DNA of 64,000 nucleotides from Rhodospirillales bacterium (GTDB lineage: Bacteria > Pseudomonadota > Alphaproteobacteria > Rhodospirillales > Defluviicoccaceae). Shown here one piece after another: positions 15,417 through 23,525 of this stretch; the first letter of the stretch is position 1; each line of letters starts with the position of its first letter. The stretch spans positions 1 through 64,000 of the forward strand of contig JAEULH010000026.1 in NCBI GenBank assembly GCA_016793925.1. Reading direction: 5' to 3'. Both the position numbers and the translations under genes were made by a program. The notes below the pieces were generated by a model. It did no database searches, had not been told where the DNA came from, and worked only from the letters and a program-made list of their open reading frames with translations.

Positions 15417-15845
15417 ATGATCCCGCCGACGGCCGCCGCAATCATCGAACAACTCGGGCTCGAGCCGCATCCCGAGGGCGGTTTCTACCGCGAGACCTAC
15501 AGGCACAAAAGCGCCACCGGCGGCCGCGGCGCGTTGACCGTCATCTACTACCTGCTGCACCGCGGTGCTGTGTCGGCCTGGCACCGGATCGACGCGGTCG
15601 AGGTCTGGCACTTCCACGCCGGCGCACCGCTCGAACTCGTCGTGGTCGAAGATGCGCGGCGGATGGTGTCGATCCTCGGGGTCGAGTTCGACGCGGGACA
15701 GGCCGCGCATGCTGTCGTTCCGAGCGGCGCCTGGCAGTCGGCGCGCAGCCTCGGCGACTGGACGCTGGTCGGCTGCACCGTTGCGCCGGCGTTCGCGTTC
15801 GCCGGCTTCGAACTGGCTGCTCCGGACTGGACGCCTCCGGAATAA
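15417..15845 (+). CDS. Cupin domain-containing protein (DUF985)
   Basis: The 142-residue single-domain protein matches the DUF985 cupins: the opening IIEQLGLEPHPEGGFYRET, the YYLLHRG strand, the metal/ligand face SAWHRIDAVEVWHFHAGAPL, and the late GDWTLVGCTVAPAFAF. Catalytic role is not established for the family. It precedes the ligD gene by 39 bases on the same strand and may be co-transcribed with it, although no functional link to DNA repair is known. Confidence 0.93.
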   Translation: MIPPTAAAIIEQLGLEPHPEGGFYRETYRHKSATGGRGALTVIYYLLHRGAVSAWHRIDAVEVWHFHAGAPLELVVVEDARRMVSILGVEFDAGQAAHAVVPSGAWQSARSLGDWTLVGCTVAPAFAFAGFELAAPDWTPPE

Positions 15846-15884: not shown

Positions 15885-18572
15885 ATGAACCAGGACGCCG
15901 GCCGCCCTGAATGCGAAGAGGAGCGCAGCGCGAGGCGAGAGCCGTTGCCCGACGCACTCGAGATCTACCGCCGCAAGCGGCGCTTCGACCGGACGCCGGA
16001 ACCGGCGGGCAAGCCGGCTGTTGCCGCCGGAGACGCCTTCGTCATCCACAAGCACGCTGCGCGCCGCTTGCACTATGACCTGCGGCTGCAATTCGGCGAC
16101 GTACTCAAGAGCTGGGCGGTAACGCGCGGCCCCAGCCTGGATCCGGCCGACCGGCGGTTGGCGGTGCACGTCGAGGATCACCCGTTCGACTACGGCTCGT
16201 TCGAGGGAAGGATTCCCAAAGGCGAGTACGGCGCCGGCGGCGTAATCGTGTGGGATCGCGGCCGTTGGGTTGCGATGGGAGATCCGGAAGACGACTACCG
16301 ACGCGGCGCCCTCAAATTTCGGCTTCTTGGCGAGAAGCTGCTCGGCGGCTGGACGCTGGTCCGCCTCAAGCGGCGCGAGGGCGAGCGGGACAACTGGCTG
16401 CTGATCAAGGAGCGCGACGAATTCGCCCGCCCGGGCGACGGCGACGCTCTGCTGCGTGAAGCGCCCGAAAGCGTTGTATCGGGCCACACCCTGGAGACAC
16501 TGCCGCCTGCCGATCCGGCGAAGGAACCGGCGGCCGGCGCGGTGCGCAAGCCTCGGACAGGCGGGTCGGTCAGGGGAATCGAATTCGACGACGCGCCGGC
16601 GGCCGCCCTGCCCGACTTTGTCGCCCCGCAACTGGCGACACTGGCCGAAAAGCCCCCCGATGGCGACGGCTGGCTTCATGAAATCAAGTTCGACGGCTAT
16701 CGCGCGCTCGTCCGCGTCGACGCCGGCGACGTGCGGATCTTCACCCGCAACGGGCACGACTGGACGGCGCGCTACGGCGATCTTCCGGACGCCTTTGCGC
16801 GCCTCGGCGACCGCCGGCTGCTGCTCGACGGCGAAATCGTTGTCCAGGACGACGACGGAGTGAGCTCGTTCGCGGCGCTGCAGGAGGCGCTCGCCCGCGG
16901 CCGGCCGCAGACGCTGCTTTTCTACGCCTTCGACCTGCTGCATCTCGACGGCCACGATCTGCAACGAATTCCGCTGCTTCGCCGCAAGGAGGCCCTTGCC
17001 GCGGTGCTTGCAGCCTTGGCCGACGGACCGGCGCCGGTCCTGCTCAGCGACCATATCCTCGGGCGCGGCGCGGCCTTCGCCGGCGAGGCCTGCCGGATGG
17101 GCCTCGAGGGAATCGTTTCAAAGCGCATCGACGCACCCTACCGCTCCGGTCGGACGAGAACCTGGCTCAAGAGCAAATGCGTCGCCGGCGACGACTTCGT
17201 CATCGTCGGCTTCACCGAAACCAAGGCCGCCGGCGGCCTCGCCGCCCTGCTCCTGGCCTCCCACGGCGACGAGGGGCTGGCCTACGCCGGGCGCGCCGGC
17301 AGCGGCATCTCCAGGCAGGAAGCCGAACGGCTGGATGCGGCGCTGCGGCCGCTCATCAGGCCGACGCCGGCGCTGAGGGTGCCGCCGGCCACGGCCGGCG
17401 AGACCGTTCGCTGGGTGGAGCCGTCGCTCGTCGCCGAGATCAACTTCGCCAATCGCACCGGTGACGGTCTGCTCCGCCAGGCGCGATACAAGGGGCTGCG
17501 CCCGGACCTGGCCGCCGCCGAGGCCGGGTCACCGCAGCGAGGCGGCAAGGCCGCCGGAAAGGACGCCGCGGCCGTGCCGACGACGGCGGTCTCGCCGCCT
17601 GAGCCGCCGCAGCCGCCGCCGAAACCGGTTGTGAAGCCGCGTCTGGTCAGCGATGCCGACCTGGCGACGATCTGGGTGACCAATCCCGAACGCTCGATGT
17701 TCGGTCGCGACGGCGCGACCAAGCTCGATCTGGCGTTGTACTACGCCCGGGTGGGCGACTGGATGCTGCCTGAAATCACGAACCGGCCGGTCAGCCTCGT
17801 CCGCTGCCCGACCGGCGAAGCCAGCGCCTGTTTCTACCAGCGCCACGCCGGCGCCGGCATGCCGCCTTCGATCAAGCGCATCGCGCTCCGGGAGGAGCGC
17901 GCGGGCAAGCGCGCGGATTTCGTCTACCTCGACGATGCCCGCGGCCTGCTCGGCCTGGCGCAGTTCGGCGTTGTCGAGTTTCACCCGTGGGGCTGCCGGG
18001 TCGACCGCCCGGAGCGCCCGGACCGGATGATCTTCGACCTCGACCCGGACGAGTCGGTGCGCTGGCGAGAGGTTGTCGCGGCGGCGTTCGACATCCGCGC
18101 CGTGCTCGAGGCGATCGGACTGGCCGTCTTCGTCAAGACCACCGGCGGCAAAGGCCTTCACCTCGTCGTCCCGCTGGCGCGTCGGCAGTCGTGGTCCGGC
18201 GTACGCGATTTCAGCGCGGCGGTGGTCAAGGCGCTCGCCCGGCGCGAGCCGAAACGCTTCACCGCCAGCCTTTCGCTGGCCAGCCGCAAGGGCAAAATCT
18301 TCATCGACTACCTTCGCAACGGCCGCGGAGCGACCGCGGTGGCCGCCTATTCGCTGCGCGCACGCGCCGGTTTGCCGGTTGCAACGCCGGTCGACTGGCA
18401 GGAACTGGACGGGCTGGATGACCCGGCCGCGCTGAATTTCCGTACAGTTCCCGAGCGCCTCGCCGGCCTCCTCGCAGATCCCTGGGCCGGCATGGACGAC
18501 GGTGCCAAGGCCGTGGACGCAAGCAGGCTACGCAAGCTGGAAACAATCTGCCCGCCGCCCCAGGGACGGTGA
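15885..18572 (+). CDS. ligD: Multifunctional DNA ligase LigD
   Basis: This 895-residue enzyme carries all three activities of bacterial non-homologous end joining. The order is 3'-phosphoesterase (about 30-190, with HKHAARRLHYDLRLQF and PKGEYGAG), ATP-dependent ligase (about 220-520, nucleotidyl-accepting Lys268 in HEIKFDGYRAL), then a primase-type polymerase (about 590-880, with FDLDPDE metal residues). A Pro/Ala-rich linker near 545-590 joins ligase and polymerase. In mycobacteria the polymerase comes first; this order is the usual one in pseudomonads and rhizobia. It is followed by Ku, so this is a functional NHEJ operon. Confidence 0.97.
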   Translation: MNQDAGRPECEEERSARREPLPDALEIYRRKRRFDRTPEPAGKPAVAAGDAFVIHKHAARRLHYDLRLQFGDVLKSWAVTRGPSLDPADRRLAVHVEDHPFDYGSFEGRIPKGEYGAGGVIVWDRGRWVAMGDPEDDYRRGALKFRLLGEKLLGGWTLVRLKRREGERDNWLLIKERDEFARPGDGDALLREAPESVVSGHTLETLPPADPAKEPAAGAVRKPRTGGSVRGIEFDDAPAAALPDFVAPQLATLAEKPPDGDGWLHEIKFDGYRALVRVDAGDVRIFTRNGHDWTARYGDLPDAFARLGDRRLLLDGEIVVQDDDGVSSFAALQEALARGRPQTLLFYAFDLLHLDGHDLQRIPLLRRKEALAAVLAALADGPAPVLLSDHILGRGAAFAGEACRMGLEGIVSKRIDAPYRSGRTRTWLKSKCVAGDDFVIVGFTETKAAGGLAALLLASHGDEGLAYAGRAGSGISRQEAERLDAALRPLIRPTPALRVPPATAGETVRWVEPSLVAEINFANRTGDGLLRQARYKGLRPDLAAAEAGSPQRGGKAAGKDAAAVPTTAVSPPEPPQPPPKPVVKPRLVSDADLATIWVTNPERSMFGRDGATKLDLALYYARVGDWMLPEITNRPVSLVRCPTGEASACFYQRHAGAGMPPSIKRIALREERAGKRADFVYLDDARGLLGLAQFGVVEFHPWGCRVDRPERPDRMIFDLDPDESVRWREVVAAAFDIRAVLEAIGLAVFVKTTGGKGLHLVVPLARRQSWSGVRDFSAAVVKALARREPKRFTASLSLASRKGKIFIDYLRNGRGATAVAAYSLRARAGLPVATPVDWQELDGLDDPAALNFRTVPERLAGLLADPWAGMDDGAKAVDASRLRKLETICPPPQGR

Positions 18573-18615: not shown

Positions 18616-19494
18616 ATGCCACCACGCGCTACCTGGAAAGGCCACCTGCGGTTGTCGCTCGTTTCCTGCCCGGTGCGTTTGTACAATGCGGTCGGCTCGG
18701 GCCGGCGCGTTTCCTTCAACCTCCTGCATCAGGAAACGCACAACAGGGTGCGCATGGTGCCCCATGACCCCGAACGCGGCGCCGTCGAGCGCAGCGAACT
18801 CGTGCGCGGGTACGAATACGAGCGCGACCGCTACATCGTCGTCGGCGACGAGGACTTGGCCAAGATCAAGCTGGAGTCGTCGGACGTGATCGATATCGAG
18901 CGCTTCGTCGACGCCGCCGATGCCGATCCGATCTACTTCGAATCCCCTTATTATCTCGCCCCGGACGGTCCGATCGCCGAAGAGACCTTCCGCGTCATCC
19001 GCAACGCCATGACGCGCAAGAACAAGATCGCGCTGTCGCGTGTCGTCCTGTCTTCGCGTGAGCACCTGATCGCGATATCCGTGCGCGACAAGGGCTTGAT
19101 GGTCACGACCCTGCGCACGGCCGACGAGGTTCGCGCCGATGCCCCCTATTTCGAGGATATCGGCGACGACCCGCCGGAGCCCGAGCTGGTCGAGTTGGCC
19201 GAACAGCTCATCGAAAAGAAGTCCGGCGCGTTCGAGCCGGCGAGCTTCCACGACCGCTATCAGGATGCCCTGCTGGCTCTGGTCCAGGCCAAGATCAAGG
19301 GCGAAGAGCCGGTGATCGCCAAGGCGCCCGAACGCGGCAAGGTGATCAACCTGATGGACGCCCTGAAGCGCAGTGTCGGCGAAATCGACGAGCGCAAACC
19401 GCCGGCCAAGAGCGCGGCTGCCGGCGGCCGCGGGAAGGAGCGCGCCGCACCGCGGCCCGCCGCGCGGCGGAAAAAGGCTGCAAGCGACGCCTGA
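18616..19494 (+). CDS. ku: DNA end-binding protein Ku
   Basis: The 292-residue Ku homodimer subunit would thread onto double-strand ends and recruit LigD. The Ku core begins at MPPRATWKGHLRLSLVSCPVRLYNA and runs to about residue 255, followed by a Lys/Arg/Ala-rich tail typical of bacterial Ku proteins. GGAGGAGG precedes the ATG. The gene begins 43 bases after ligD and is followed 20 bases later by the BRCT-TPR gene, so the three are very likely one operon. Confidence 0.97.
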   Translation: MPPRATWKGHLRLSLVSCPVRLYNAVGSGRRVSFNLLHQETHNRVRMVPHDPERGAVERSELVRGYEYERDRYIVVGDEDLAKIKLESSDVIDIERFVDAADADPIYFESPYYLAPDGPIAEETFRVIRNAMTRKNKIALSRVVLSSREHLIAISVRDKGLMVTTLRTADEVRADAPYFEDIGDDPPEPELVELAEQLIEKKSGAFEPASFHDRYQDALLALVQAKIKGEEPVIAKAPERGKVINLMDALKRSVGEIDERKPPAKSAAAGGRGKERAAPRPAARRKKAASDA

Positions 19495-19514: not shown

Positions 19515-20714
19515 ATGGCGCAGGTCGGTCGGGCCGCTGCAGATGGCCTCGACTTCGCGGGGAAGTCGGTGTTGATCGTCGGCCGGCTGGAAACCATCGA
19601 CCGGCGCACCGCCGCCGGGCTGGTCAAGGCGCGGGGTGGCCGCATCGGCCGGAGCCTGGGCCGGGACACGCTATGCCTTGTCGTCGGTCATCGCGCTTTC
19701 GACCTCGTTACCAGCGGCGTTCTGCAGGCCCGCATCGCCGAGGCCGATCGAGCCGGTGTGCTTTGTCTCAGCGAAAACGCCTTCGTCCGCGCCATCAGGC
19801 ACGGCATTGGGAAGACCGCCGATGCCGCCGACTCGTTCGGAGAGATCTTTGCCTCTGGTGGCGAACCCGCCGCTGCGCCTGCCGTTGACGCCGACGAGGG
19901 CGCGTTCGGCGCCGCCGAGATCGCGAAGATGGCCGGCCTGTCGGAGGACATGCTGCGCCTTCTTGCGCTGCTCGACATCATCGGGCTGGACGGCGGCCGC
20001 GGCGGCTTTCACGCGCTCGCCGCGGCGCGCCAGGCCGCGCGCCTGCTGAACGAGGGCGTTTCGGTGGCCGCTCTGTCCGCCTCCGTCAGGCGGATGCTCG
20101 CGATCCGCTGCGGCGACGATCCGCATCCGCTCGCCCGGTTCCGCTTCGACCTGGACGAATGCCGGCGGCCGGTCCTTCGCATCGGCGAGCGGTGGGCCGA
20201 AGTCGACGGGCAACTGCGTCTGCTTTTGCCGGAGAGCGGCAACCCGGTCGTCGAAGATCTTATGGCCGGAGCGGAAGAGGCAGAAGCCGCCGGCGATTGG
20301 ACCTCCGCCGAGGCGCTCTACCGACGCTGCGTCGACCTCGACCATCGCAACCCGACGGCGCCGTTCAACCTCGCCAACGTCCTGTGCGAGCAGGACCGGC
20401 CGCGCGAAGCGGCTCTGTTCTACCAGGTGTCGCTATCTCGCGATCCCAACTGCGCCGCGGCCTGGTACAACCTCGCCCACCTCGCCGAAGCGGGCGGGGA
20501 CATCGACGCCGCCTGCGATCGGCTGCAGCGCGCTCTCGACTGCGAGCCCGATTTCGCCGACGCCGTTTACAACCTCGCCCGGCTGCACTACCGCGGCGGC
20601 GCCTACGCGCGCGCGGCGGAGGGGTGGCGGCGGTACCTTCAGCTGGATCAGGACAGCGAGTGGGCTCGCAAAGCGCGAACCGGGATCGCCCTCTGCCGCC
20701 AGCATCAGCGCTGA
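19515..20714 (+). CDS. BRCT-HTH-TPR protein in the NHEJ operon
   Basis: The 399-residue product has an N-terminal BRCT-like domain at about 12-95 (GKSVLIVGRLETIDR, then GGRIGRSLGRDTLCLVVG), an acidic Ala-rich linker, a MerR-like helix-turn-helix at about 130-200 (FGAAEIAKMAGLSEDML) and at least three tetratricopeptide repeats from about 260 to the end (NPTAPFNLANVLCEQDR, AAAWYNLAHLAEAGGD, ADAVYNLARLHYRGG). GGAGCGGG fits the ATG at 19515; a TTG six bases earlier is too close. Its place 20 bases after ku suggests a scaffold or regulator for end joining; BRCT modules bind repair proteins and phosphopeptides. Function is inferred, not known. Confidence 0.82.
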   Translation: MAQVGRAAADGLDFAGKSVLIVGRLETIDRRTAAGLVKARGGRIGRSLGRDTLCLVVGHRAFDLVTSGVLQARIAEADRAGVLCLSENAFVRAIRHGIGKTADAADSFGEIFASGGEPAAAPAVDADEGAFGAAEIAKMAGLSEDMLRLLALLDIIGLDGGRGGFHALAAARQAARLLNEGVSVAALSASVRRMLAIRCGDDPHPLARFRFDLDECRRPVLRIGERWAEVDGQLRLLLPESGNPVVEDLMAGAEEAEAAGDWTSAEALYRRCVDLDHRNPTAPFNLANVLCEQDRPREAALFYQVSLSRDPNCAAAWYNLAHLAEAGGDIDAACDRLQRALDCEPDFADAVYNLARLHYRGGAYARAAEGWRRYLQLDQDSEWARKARTGIALCRQHQR

Positions 20715-21191: not shown

Positions 21192-23525
21192 CTACTGTTC
21201 CGGGCGGTCATGCGGTTTTGGGACCGACCGTTGCAGCTGATCGACGAGACTTTGCGCCGCCGGATCGATGGCGGCGAGGCGGATGGCCCACGCGAGAGCG
21301 GCATCGCCGCGACCGGCGTCGCGGTTAATCGTGGTCAGCGCAAACAGCGTGTCGCGGTCGGCCGGATGCCGGGCATGGCTTTCCTCCAGAACCCTGATCG
21401 CTTCCTCAGAGCGCCCAACCGCATTCAGCGCGACGGCATACACGTACGCGTAAAGTGAGTCCGCCGGATCGAGCTCGGCCGCCCGGGCGAATTCCGCCAC
21501 CGAGGCGTCGGCCCCATGCTGGCGCACCAGGTTGAGGCCGAGCGCATGGTGCAGTTCGGGCGCATCCGGGTAGCGCGTCAGCGCGTCCCGAAGCACGCGC
21601 TCGCCGTCGGCATCGCGTGATTGTTGAGCGTAGAGCTGGGCGAGGCTGGTGTAGACCGGCGTGAAGCTGGGATCGAGAGTCTGAGCCGCGACCAGTTCCT
21701 TTTCCGCTTCGGCAAAGCGGCCCTGTTGCAGATAGAGATTGCCAAGGTTGACCCGGTGTTCGGGACGATCGGCGTTGACCCGTTGCGCCGCCTCGTAGTC
21801 GGCCAAGGCGGTCGCCAGGCGGTCCCGATCGGCCGGCGAGAGGCGATCGGCCGGCGTCGTGGCCAGGAGCCCGGCAGCTTCGATGCGGACCGCGAGCACG
21901 GGATCGGAGAGGAGCCCATTCGCCAACTGCCACGTCCCCTCCACCGGAAACGCGCGCATCGCCCGGAGCGCGCCCAAGCGGACCAGCGGATCCGGATCCG
22001 CCAGGCCCCGTTGCGCCGCCGCAGCGGAATCGCGGCCGGGGTAATCGGCCAAGCCCTCGAATGCGGTCGCTCGCACGATCGACGGCGCTTCGAGGCTCGT
22101 CGCGAGTTTGAGCAGCAACGCGGCCGCCTTGGGGTCGCCTGCGCGCGCCGCGGCGAAGGTCCCGGTCCAAGTCTGAAAGCCCTTGCGTACCGGCCCGAAC
22201 CACTGCTCGATGGCGGCCGCGGCCCAGGCAGCGTCCTTGTCGGCATGGCAGTCGTTGCAGGCGTTCGAGGTGCCGAAGCGCACGGATTCGTCGGGCCTCG
22301 GCACGCGGAAGGCGTGGTCGTGTCGCGGGTCGACCTGCATGTAGGTCTTGACCGGCATGTGACAGGCGACGCACCGCGTCCCCGCCGATCCCTCGGCATG
22401 GTGCGTGTGCGCAGAGACCGCGTACTTCCCCTCGTCATGGCACTGTGTGCAAACGGCGTTCCCATCCGCGACCAGCTTCAGGGAGTGGGGGTTGTGGCAA
22501 TCGCTGCAGGAAACGCCGGCCATGAACATCTTGCTCTGACGAAACGGCGCGTAGTTGTAGACCTCGTCCAGGCTCTTGCCGTCAGCTTCGAACAGCCCGG
22601 CGTACAGGAGGCTTGGCACGTGGGTCTCGAGCAGGGAGTGTCCCGGCCGCCACGGCTCGGCGATCTTGCCGCTGCGCGAATGACATACGCCGCATGTCTC
22701 CAATTCCTTTGCCGACGTTCGCGGTGCGCTGCGACGCGCATTGCCGGTTGTCGGGTCGATGGCCCACGAGACGGCTTCCCGCTCATCGAAGTGGACGCTC
22801 AGCCCGTCATCGCCTCCCGACTGCGGCCAGTCCGCGGTTTTCCGGCGCTCCGCCCAGGCGACGTGAGCCGCGCCGGGCCCGTGGCAGGCTTCGCAGCCGA
22901 CGTTGATTTCGGCCCAGGTCGTGGCGTACGTGTTGCTGGCCGCGTCGTAGTTCTTGCGAAGCTCGGTCGAATGGCACTCGGCGCACTGGAAGTTCCAGGT
23001 CTGATCGATGCCGGTCCAGTGGACGGGATCGCCGGCCTTGAGCCTCCGGTCGGGATAGAGGTGAAACCAGCGCTGGCCACCGGCTTCCTTCGGCCGGCTG
23101 TCCCAGGCAATGCCAAGCGCCTGCATTCGGCCATCGGGAAAGGCAATCAGGTACTGCTGAAGCGGCGTGACCCCGAAGGTGTAGCGAATTTCGAAATCGG
23201 CAAGCTTGCCGTCGGGTCCGTCGGTGTTGACGAAGAACTTCCCGTCCCGCTTGAAGAAGCGCGAGGTGATGTCGCCATACGTAAAGGTTGCGCCCGAGAA
23301 ATCGCCGAGCACGCTGCTCTCGGTCGCTTTCTGCATGGCGAGATCGTGATGAGAACCGCGCCACGCCGTCGCTTCCGCCTGGTGGCAACCGGCGCAGGCG
23401 GCGCTTCCCACGAATGCAGCGGCGGTAGCCGGGGCGTCGGCTTCCCCGCGCGTGGGCGCCGATAGCGAAACGACGAGGCCGGCGACGGCCGCCAACGCCA
23501 ACCGCTTGAGGCACAAGAACGTCAC
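21192..23525 (-). CDS. Secreted eight-haem cytochrome c with TPR domain
   Basis: The 777-residue product has a signal peptide and eight CxxCH haem-binding motifs starting at residues 44, 181, 211, 278, 340, 359, 385 and 423, so it is predicted to be a periplasmic multihaem cytochrome of the cytochrome c-554-like group. From about 445 HEAT-like and then tetratricopeptide repeats (about 595-760) follow, suggesting a docking role. Electron donor and acceptor are unknown; the neighbours are a lipoprotein and a FadL porin, not a reductase. Length and the long repeat tail are larger than in simple c-554 proteins. Confidence 0.9.
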   Translation of the reverse strand: MTFLCLKRLALAAVAGLVVSLSAPTRGEADAPATAAAFVGSAACAGCHQAEATAWRGSHHDLAMQKATESSVLGDFSGATFTYGDITSRFFKRDGKFFVNTDGPDGKLADFEIRYTFGVTPLQQYLIAFPDGRMQALGIAWDSRPKEAGGQRWFHLYPDRRLKAGDPVHWTGIDQTWNFQCAECHSTELRKNYDAASNTYATTWAEINVGCEACHGPGAAHVAWAERRKTADWPQSGGDDGLSVHFDEREAVSWAIDPTTGNARRSAPRTSAKELETCGVCHSRSGKIAEPWRPGHSLLETHVPSLLYAGLFEADGKSLDEVYNYAPFRQSKMFMAGVSCSDCHNPHSLKLVADGNAVCTQCHDEGKYAVSAHTHHAEGSAGTRCVACHMPVKTYMQVDPRHDHAFRVPRPDESVRFGTSNACNDCHADKDAAWAAAAIEQWFGPVRKGFQTWTGTFAAARAGDPKAAALLLKLATSLEAPSIVRATAFEGLADYPGRDSAAAAQRGLADPDPLVRLGALRAMRAFPVEGTWQLANGLLSDPVLAVRIEAAGLLATTPADRLSPADRDRLATALADYEAAQRVNADRPEHRVNLGNLYLQQGRFAEAEKELVAAQTLDPSFTPVYTSLAQLYAQQSRDADGERVLRDALTRYPDAPELHHALGLNLVRQHGADASVAEFARAAELDPADSLYAYVYAVALNAVGRSEEAIRVLEESHARHPADRDTLFALTTINRDAGRGDAALAWAIRLAAIDPAAQSLVDQLQRSVPKPHDRPEQ

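Follow-up and report, generated by a model that had tools for sequence, protein, structure and literature searches.

A BRCT and tetratricopeptide repeat protein encoded directly after ku in one subtype of alphaproteobacterial end-joining loci

Bacterial non-homologous end joining (NHEJ) is taught as a pathway of two proteins, Ku and LigD. Ku and LigD alone are described as forming the whole NHEJ machinery in other bacteria (PMC1378119), two NHEJ factors only are described in a further study (PMC5124664), and the main text of a study that compared the genes around ku and ligD (PMC7719229) mentions neither BRCT nor tetratricopeptide repeats (TPRs). The locus described here lies in a stretch of 64,000 nucleotides (hereafter, the window) from a Rhodospirillales bacterium of the family Defluviicoccaceae (contig JAEULH010000026.1). 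It resembles the two-component systems in its adjacent ku and ligD genes, the latter encoding PE, ligase and polymerase domains, but differs from them in a third gene fixed after ku (Table 1). The name BTP was coined for its product, a BRCT - MerR-like helix-turn-helix (HTH) - TPR protein. No description of BTP was found in the accessible literature, which left out key S. meliloti NHEJ studies; the protein appears to be new, with some risk of an earlier mention.

Table 1. Position and supporting evidence of the end-joining genes in the window and of the domains encoded by the BTP gene.
Feature	Position	Strand	Description
ligD (PE, ligase, polymerase domains)	15885..18572	+	NF004628 E=1e-296; Pfam LigD_N, DNA_ligase_A_M/C, LigD_Prim-Pol
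ku	18616..19494	+	TIGR02772 280.5 bits, E=1.2e-83
BTP gene	19515..20714	+	BRCT - MerR-like HTH - beta hairpin - 4 TPR; 399 aa; alternative start TTG 19509; 26 full-length members
BRCT domain, residues 11-97	19545..19805	+	Profile matches LigA 1l7b and RFC1 2ebu, E=1.4e-8; VIA Z 10.3 to LigA BRCT
Disordered linker, residues 98-126	19806..19892	+	pLDDT under 50; mostly gap in homologues, longer in the window protein
Predicted MerR-like winged HTH, residues 127-200	19893..20114	+	Foldseek fold matches; MerR_1 in 2/11 homologues
Beta hairpin and linker, residues 201-245	20115..20249	+	Strands 210-213, 219-223 and 226-228 in the model; conserved Q233 (DGQ motif)
Four TPRs and capping helix, residues 246-399	20250..20711	+	Pfam TPR_17/TPR_19 E about 1e-13; pLDDT about 98

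The earlier note on this DNA had placed the BTP frame 20 bases after ku, within a Ku-LigD operon, and this holds for a real gene: the frame begins 20 bp past the ku stop (19494), and both ku and ligD are unambiguous by NCBIfam. The open frame counts 399 aa from ATG 19515 and 401 aa from TTG 19509, and a GGAG motif upstream of it is located 13 nt from the former and 7 nt from the latter, a spacing that suits TTG 19509 better, the exact position of the start being unsettled. Since two close homologues with 89% identity (L037 and L039) showed a dN of 0.074 against a dS of 0.912 (dN/dS 0.08), BTP encodes a protein and evolves under purifying selection. The same architecture was kept in homologues of 27-41% identity, which came from 12 families among the genomes sampled. 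A chance open reading frame on high-GC DNA was rejected on the basis of the homologues and the dN/dS. The operon was also scanned for promoters; no convincing general-stress site (GGAAC-N15-18-GTT) was detected, with counts equal to the chance expectation, and no sigma-70-like promoter was found. Two neighbouring frames were recorded: a small, putatively cupin-like ORF (15417-15845), ending 39 bp before ligD, with which the operon may begin, and, adjoining the operon on the opposite strand, a multihaem cytochrome-like protein (21192-23525) whose C-terminal TPRs weakly match the BTP profile.

The N-terminal domain of BTP was confirmed as a BRCT of the LigA/RFC1 type by a homologue profile together with the predicted fold, in agreement with what the earlier note had read from the sequence and against the non-BRCT fold that it had named as a refuting outcome. 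The window protein alone scored 15.7 bits against the Pfam BRCT model, under the cut-off of 21.3, and E=1.4e-4 against a LigA model, whereas a profile of 14 homologues returned LigA/RFC1-type BRCTs as its sole significant PDB matches (best E=1.4e-8). In the AlphaFold model, strands at residues 18-22, 43-45, 52-57 and 83-86 and helices at residues 30-39, 69-79 and 87-96 follow one another as the beta-alpha-beta-beta-alpha-beta-alpha fold of about 90 residues that defines the BRCT superfamily, a topology given by two models. Foldseek and VIA-align both ranked the BRCT domains of LigA and RFC1 first, with VIA-align Z scores for the model of residues 11-241 of 10.3 against LigA and 9.4-10.0 against RFC1. 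In phosphate-binding BRCT domains of the RFC1/LigA type, a Ser or Thr with a role in phosphate binding (T415 in RFC1) precedes the conserved Gly of strand 1. The residue found there in BTP is Ile, Val, Tyr or Leu in 25 of the 26 members and Thr in the remaining one, while Arg is kept in 22 of the 26 at the basic loop position corresponding to the first Lys of the RFC1 SKKT motif. The BRCT domain of RFC1 prefers DNA ends carrying a 5'-phosphate (PMC9293009); because the phosphate-binding Thr is missing in 25/26 members, BTP is unlikely to read 5'-phosphates in the same manner. The BTP domain is closest to the LigA and RFC1 domains by both profile and fold and shares their basic loop residue, but it differs from them in the replaced Thr and in extra residues that separate strand 3 from helix 2, and it is joined to an HTH and TPRs rather than to a ligase or clamp loader.

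The earlier note had further proposed that a MerR-like HTH and TPRs share the frame with the BRCT domain; the TPRs are certain, and the HTH finds support in the predicted fold, its sequence signal being weak. The C-terminal part consists of tandem 34-residue helix pairs (helices between residues 246 and 398), several Pfam TPR models scored above their cut-off, and this part showed the highest mean identity of all BTP domains. The whole-protein AlphaFold2 model reached a mean pLDDT of 86.2 with a pTM of 0.53, the mutual placement of the domains being unsure. Because matches to the TPRs crowd the fold search with the whole model, the N-terminal part (residues 11-241) was modelled alone (pLDDT 82.9). 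One row from a plasmid record was left out of the alignment for structure prediction. Both models gave a BRCT topology followed by a winged HTH and a hairpin, and the whole-protein model added four TPRs; within the hairpin and linker region, Q233 is nearly invariant in the alignment of BTP homologues. Fold matches of the predicted HTH in Foldseek were SoxR (2zhh), MerR (5crl), NmlR (5d90) and CbpM (3ucs), with probabilities of 0.96-0.99 and E values of 0.15-0.28. MerR_1 matched two of the 11 homologues (best E=3.4e-4) and stayed below threshold in the window protein, and a PDB profile search returned a DNA-binding domain (2jml) at an E of only 0.034. The predicted HTH would share the winged-helix topology with MerR-family proteins and CbpM, but the window protein has no significant match to the MerR family, and the long dimerisation helix and C-terminal sensor domain of MerR are absent from the model, in which a short hairpin and then the TPRs come after the HTH. 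A short homologue (G281; L108:1484-2146) combines BRCT and TPRs with no HTH; the ku frame of that locus overlaps the homologue by 161 bp, perhaps owing to a sequencing error.

These features bear on whether BTP could regulate its own operon, its MerR-like HTH binding the operon promoter while the BRCT or TPR parts sense damage or the Ku level. Such a role would fit the MerR-like fold found by Foldseek, the MerR_1 matches of two homologues and the location of the gene within the operon, as is frequent among autoregulators. However, the HTH is weak by sequence and lacks the dimerisation helix and sensor domain typical of the family, one homologue dispenses with it while keeping BRCT and TPRs, and MerR-like folds can also be protein adaptors, such as CbpM, whose matched structure is in complex with a J-domain; we regard a regulatory role as quite improbable. 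Since the dimerisation helix and sensor domain are absent from the model and the HTH itself from the short homologue, the MerR-like fold is more likely to be a module for protein or DNA contact than a classical regulator.

The distribution of BTP was surveyed in several samples of genomes. Ku was present in 55 of 385 alphaproteobacterial genomes, and a BRCT+HTH profile detected BTP with E<1e-16 in 13 of the 385, in all cases directly 3' of ku and on the same strand (13/13), with a 14th BTP present as a fragment at a contig end (G129). The probability that all 13 genomes would be Ku-positive by chance was about 3e-12, a value that ignores their relatedness and does not count the adjacency. Six strong homologues beyond the window were retrieved by a protein search of 190 alphaproteobacterial genomes that was blind to ku, and all six lie directly after ku. 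A phylum-wide sample of 398 genomes added nine full-length BTPs, all of them alphaproteobacterial with ku just upstream; five candidates per genome were scored in this sample, which does not prove absence outside the class. A GTDB scan with a narrower alignment gave six loci, the new ones being two from Mesorhizobium (ligD-ku-BTP) and one from a Geminicoccaceae MAG, and S. meliloti carries ligD-ku-BTP on pSymB, with BTP annotated only as 'tetratricopeptide repeat protein'. In 13 of 14 loci, ku and BTP were either 8-59 bp apart or overlapped by 1-4 bp. In total, 26 BTPs were linked to ku and one was not, so that the family keeps its operonic place beside ku in distantly related genomes and does not lie mostly away from it, the outcome that the earlier note had named as refuting. 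The unlinked BTP belongs to the Geminicoccaceae MAG (L166:5998-7125), whose Ku is encoded on that contig too, at a distance of about 170 kb. Weaker profile matches (E of 1e-9 and worse, among the matches listed), found in nearly all genomes, were confined to the BRCT part, lay mostly in frames about as long as that of LigA and were read as LigA; one such match that was read out proved LigA-like. TPR-only matches were set aside as unrelated TPR proteins, and PADLOC assigned BTP to no defence family, its only matches being of the TPRs to a PrimPol model and to TPR models.

The order ligD-ku-BTP was found in most loci, but ku-BTP-ligD was observed in two (G371 and G180), ligD was divergent in two others (G205 and G073), and no ligD was located nearby in another (G243). 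Comparison of 16 loci showed that only ligD, ku and BTP are common to all or nearly all of them, other neighbours recurring in groups of three to four loci. Because ligD changes its place between loci and distant loci have no further neighbour in common, the genetic bond of BTP is to ku rather than to ligD; the earlier note, which had joined BTP to Ku-LigD as a unit, needs correction here, as BTP follows ku with ligD upstream, downstream, divergent or not nearby. In the clustering of neighbourhoods, matches along the antisense frames of ku, ligD and BTP were discarded as frame artefacts of GC-rich coding DNA. Directly upstream of BTP in the MAG VGES01000006.1 (L109:7767-9920 on the reverse strand, L164:3883-5904), a single ORF joins LigD (about residues 1-460) in-frame with Ku from residue 34, representing either a deletion fusion or an assembly error. 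In Sinorhizobium and Mesorhizobium (L036:8554-9976, L167 and L168), the operon runs on after BTP with genes for an alpha/beta hydrolase and exodeoxyribonuclease III (xth). This continuation, together with the action of bacterial Ku on abasic sites described in PMC4245934, could indicate that BTP serves a Ku role other than general end joining. Ends that are abasic or otherwise damaged might be repaired with exonuclease III, foreign DNA might be taken up, or ends might be protected under particular stresses. However, xth is confined to the rhizobial loci and elsewhere only ligD accompanies ku-BTP, and we consider such a role unlikely.

A tree built from 90 Ku proteins contained a clade of 23 members (support 100/97), among them 21 whose genes are adjacent to BTP, the two exceptions being the Ku on a long branch from the genome with the unlinked BTP and the Ku of G009. 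Five further ku-BTP pairs belong to other Ku clades with other arrangements of ligD, and the BTP label changed seven times on the tree compared with 22.8 changes expected after shuffling. Because of this distribution across the clade, BTP is considered old in this Ku subtype and lost at least once, and outside the main clade it has either moved or been repeatedly lost. The genome G009 (L204), which belongs to the window's own family, combines ligD with a Ku of this clade but lacks BTP in an assembly that is 99% complete, its ligD-ku pair being followed by a short-chain dehydrogenase-like ORF; therefore, BTP is not obligatory. In each genome checked that carries two to four ku genes, exactly one ku was linked to BTP. 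The distances of Ku and BTP were correlated, at r=0.93 across 25 pairs and at r=0.59 across the 12 that were left after dereplication (21 of 5000 permutations as high), as would fit partners but is also expected for linked genes. Since most pairs fall in one Ku clade, their association is in part a single inherited event, as it would be if BTP were a passenger kept after ku by common descent of the whole locus and had no Ku function. Against this, the flanking genes are scrambled while ku-BTP persists, the pair recurs in other Ku clades and with other ligD arrangements, and the gene is under purifying selection, making a passenger highly improbable.

The near-constant adjacency of ku and BTP points to a third partner in one branch of bacterial end joining, a system generally regarded as consisting of two proteins. 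Within one NHEJ subtype, BTP is probably a partner or scaffold dedicated to Ku, produced together with Ku and usually from a ligD-ku-BTP or ku-BTP-ligD operon, although common transcription with ku is no proof of a common function. As an adaptor at Ku-bound ends, BTP would use its TPR superhelix to bind a peptide, which could come from Ku, from LigD or from an enzyme that processes the ends, while its BRCT domain, with basic residues kept and the phosphate-binding Thr gone, would attach to a repair protein or to the DNA close to the break. BTP may recruit or regulate Ku-LigD, as the earlier note had proposed. The idea of an undescribed third gene in alphaproteobacterial NHEJ loci is supported for one subtype (14 of the 55 Ku-positive genomes) and not for the class as a whole. 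Conserved after ku and not after ligD, this gene sets one NHEJ subtype apart within the alphaproteobacteria, of which many carriers are associated with soil or plants, and provides a handle on why Sinorhizobium and Mesorhizobium genomes keep several ku genes. The presence of BTP on pSymB of the genetically tractable S. meliloti opens its role to a deletion test, and BTP may matter for genome editing based on end joining in these bacteria.

Eukaryotic NHEJ and break-repair proteins such as ligase IV, Pol mu/lambda/TdT and XRCC1 resemble BTP in that they carry a BRCT domain and are connected with Ku or with ligation. We see an even balance of chances that three proteins make up the machine in this branch of bacterial NHEJ, in which BTP as a BRCT scaffold would bind Ku at the break and organise LigD or end-processing enzymes, as a convergent functional counterpart of the BRCT- and scaffold-dependent assembly of eukaryotic NHEJ. 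The NHEJ complexes of ligase IV and Pol mu appeared low in the list of fold matches of the N-terminal BTP model. In contrast to the eukaryotic proteins, BTP has no catalytic domain and carries a TPR scaffold in place of their coiled coil, and the relation shown between them is that of the BRCT fold alone.
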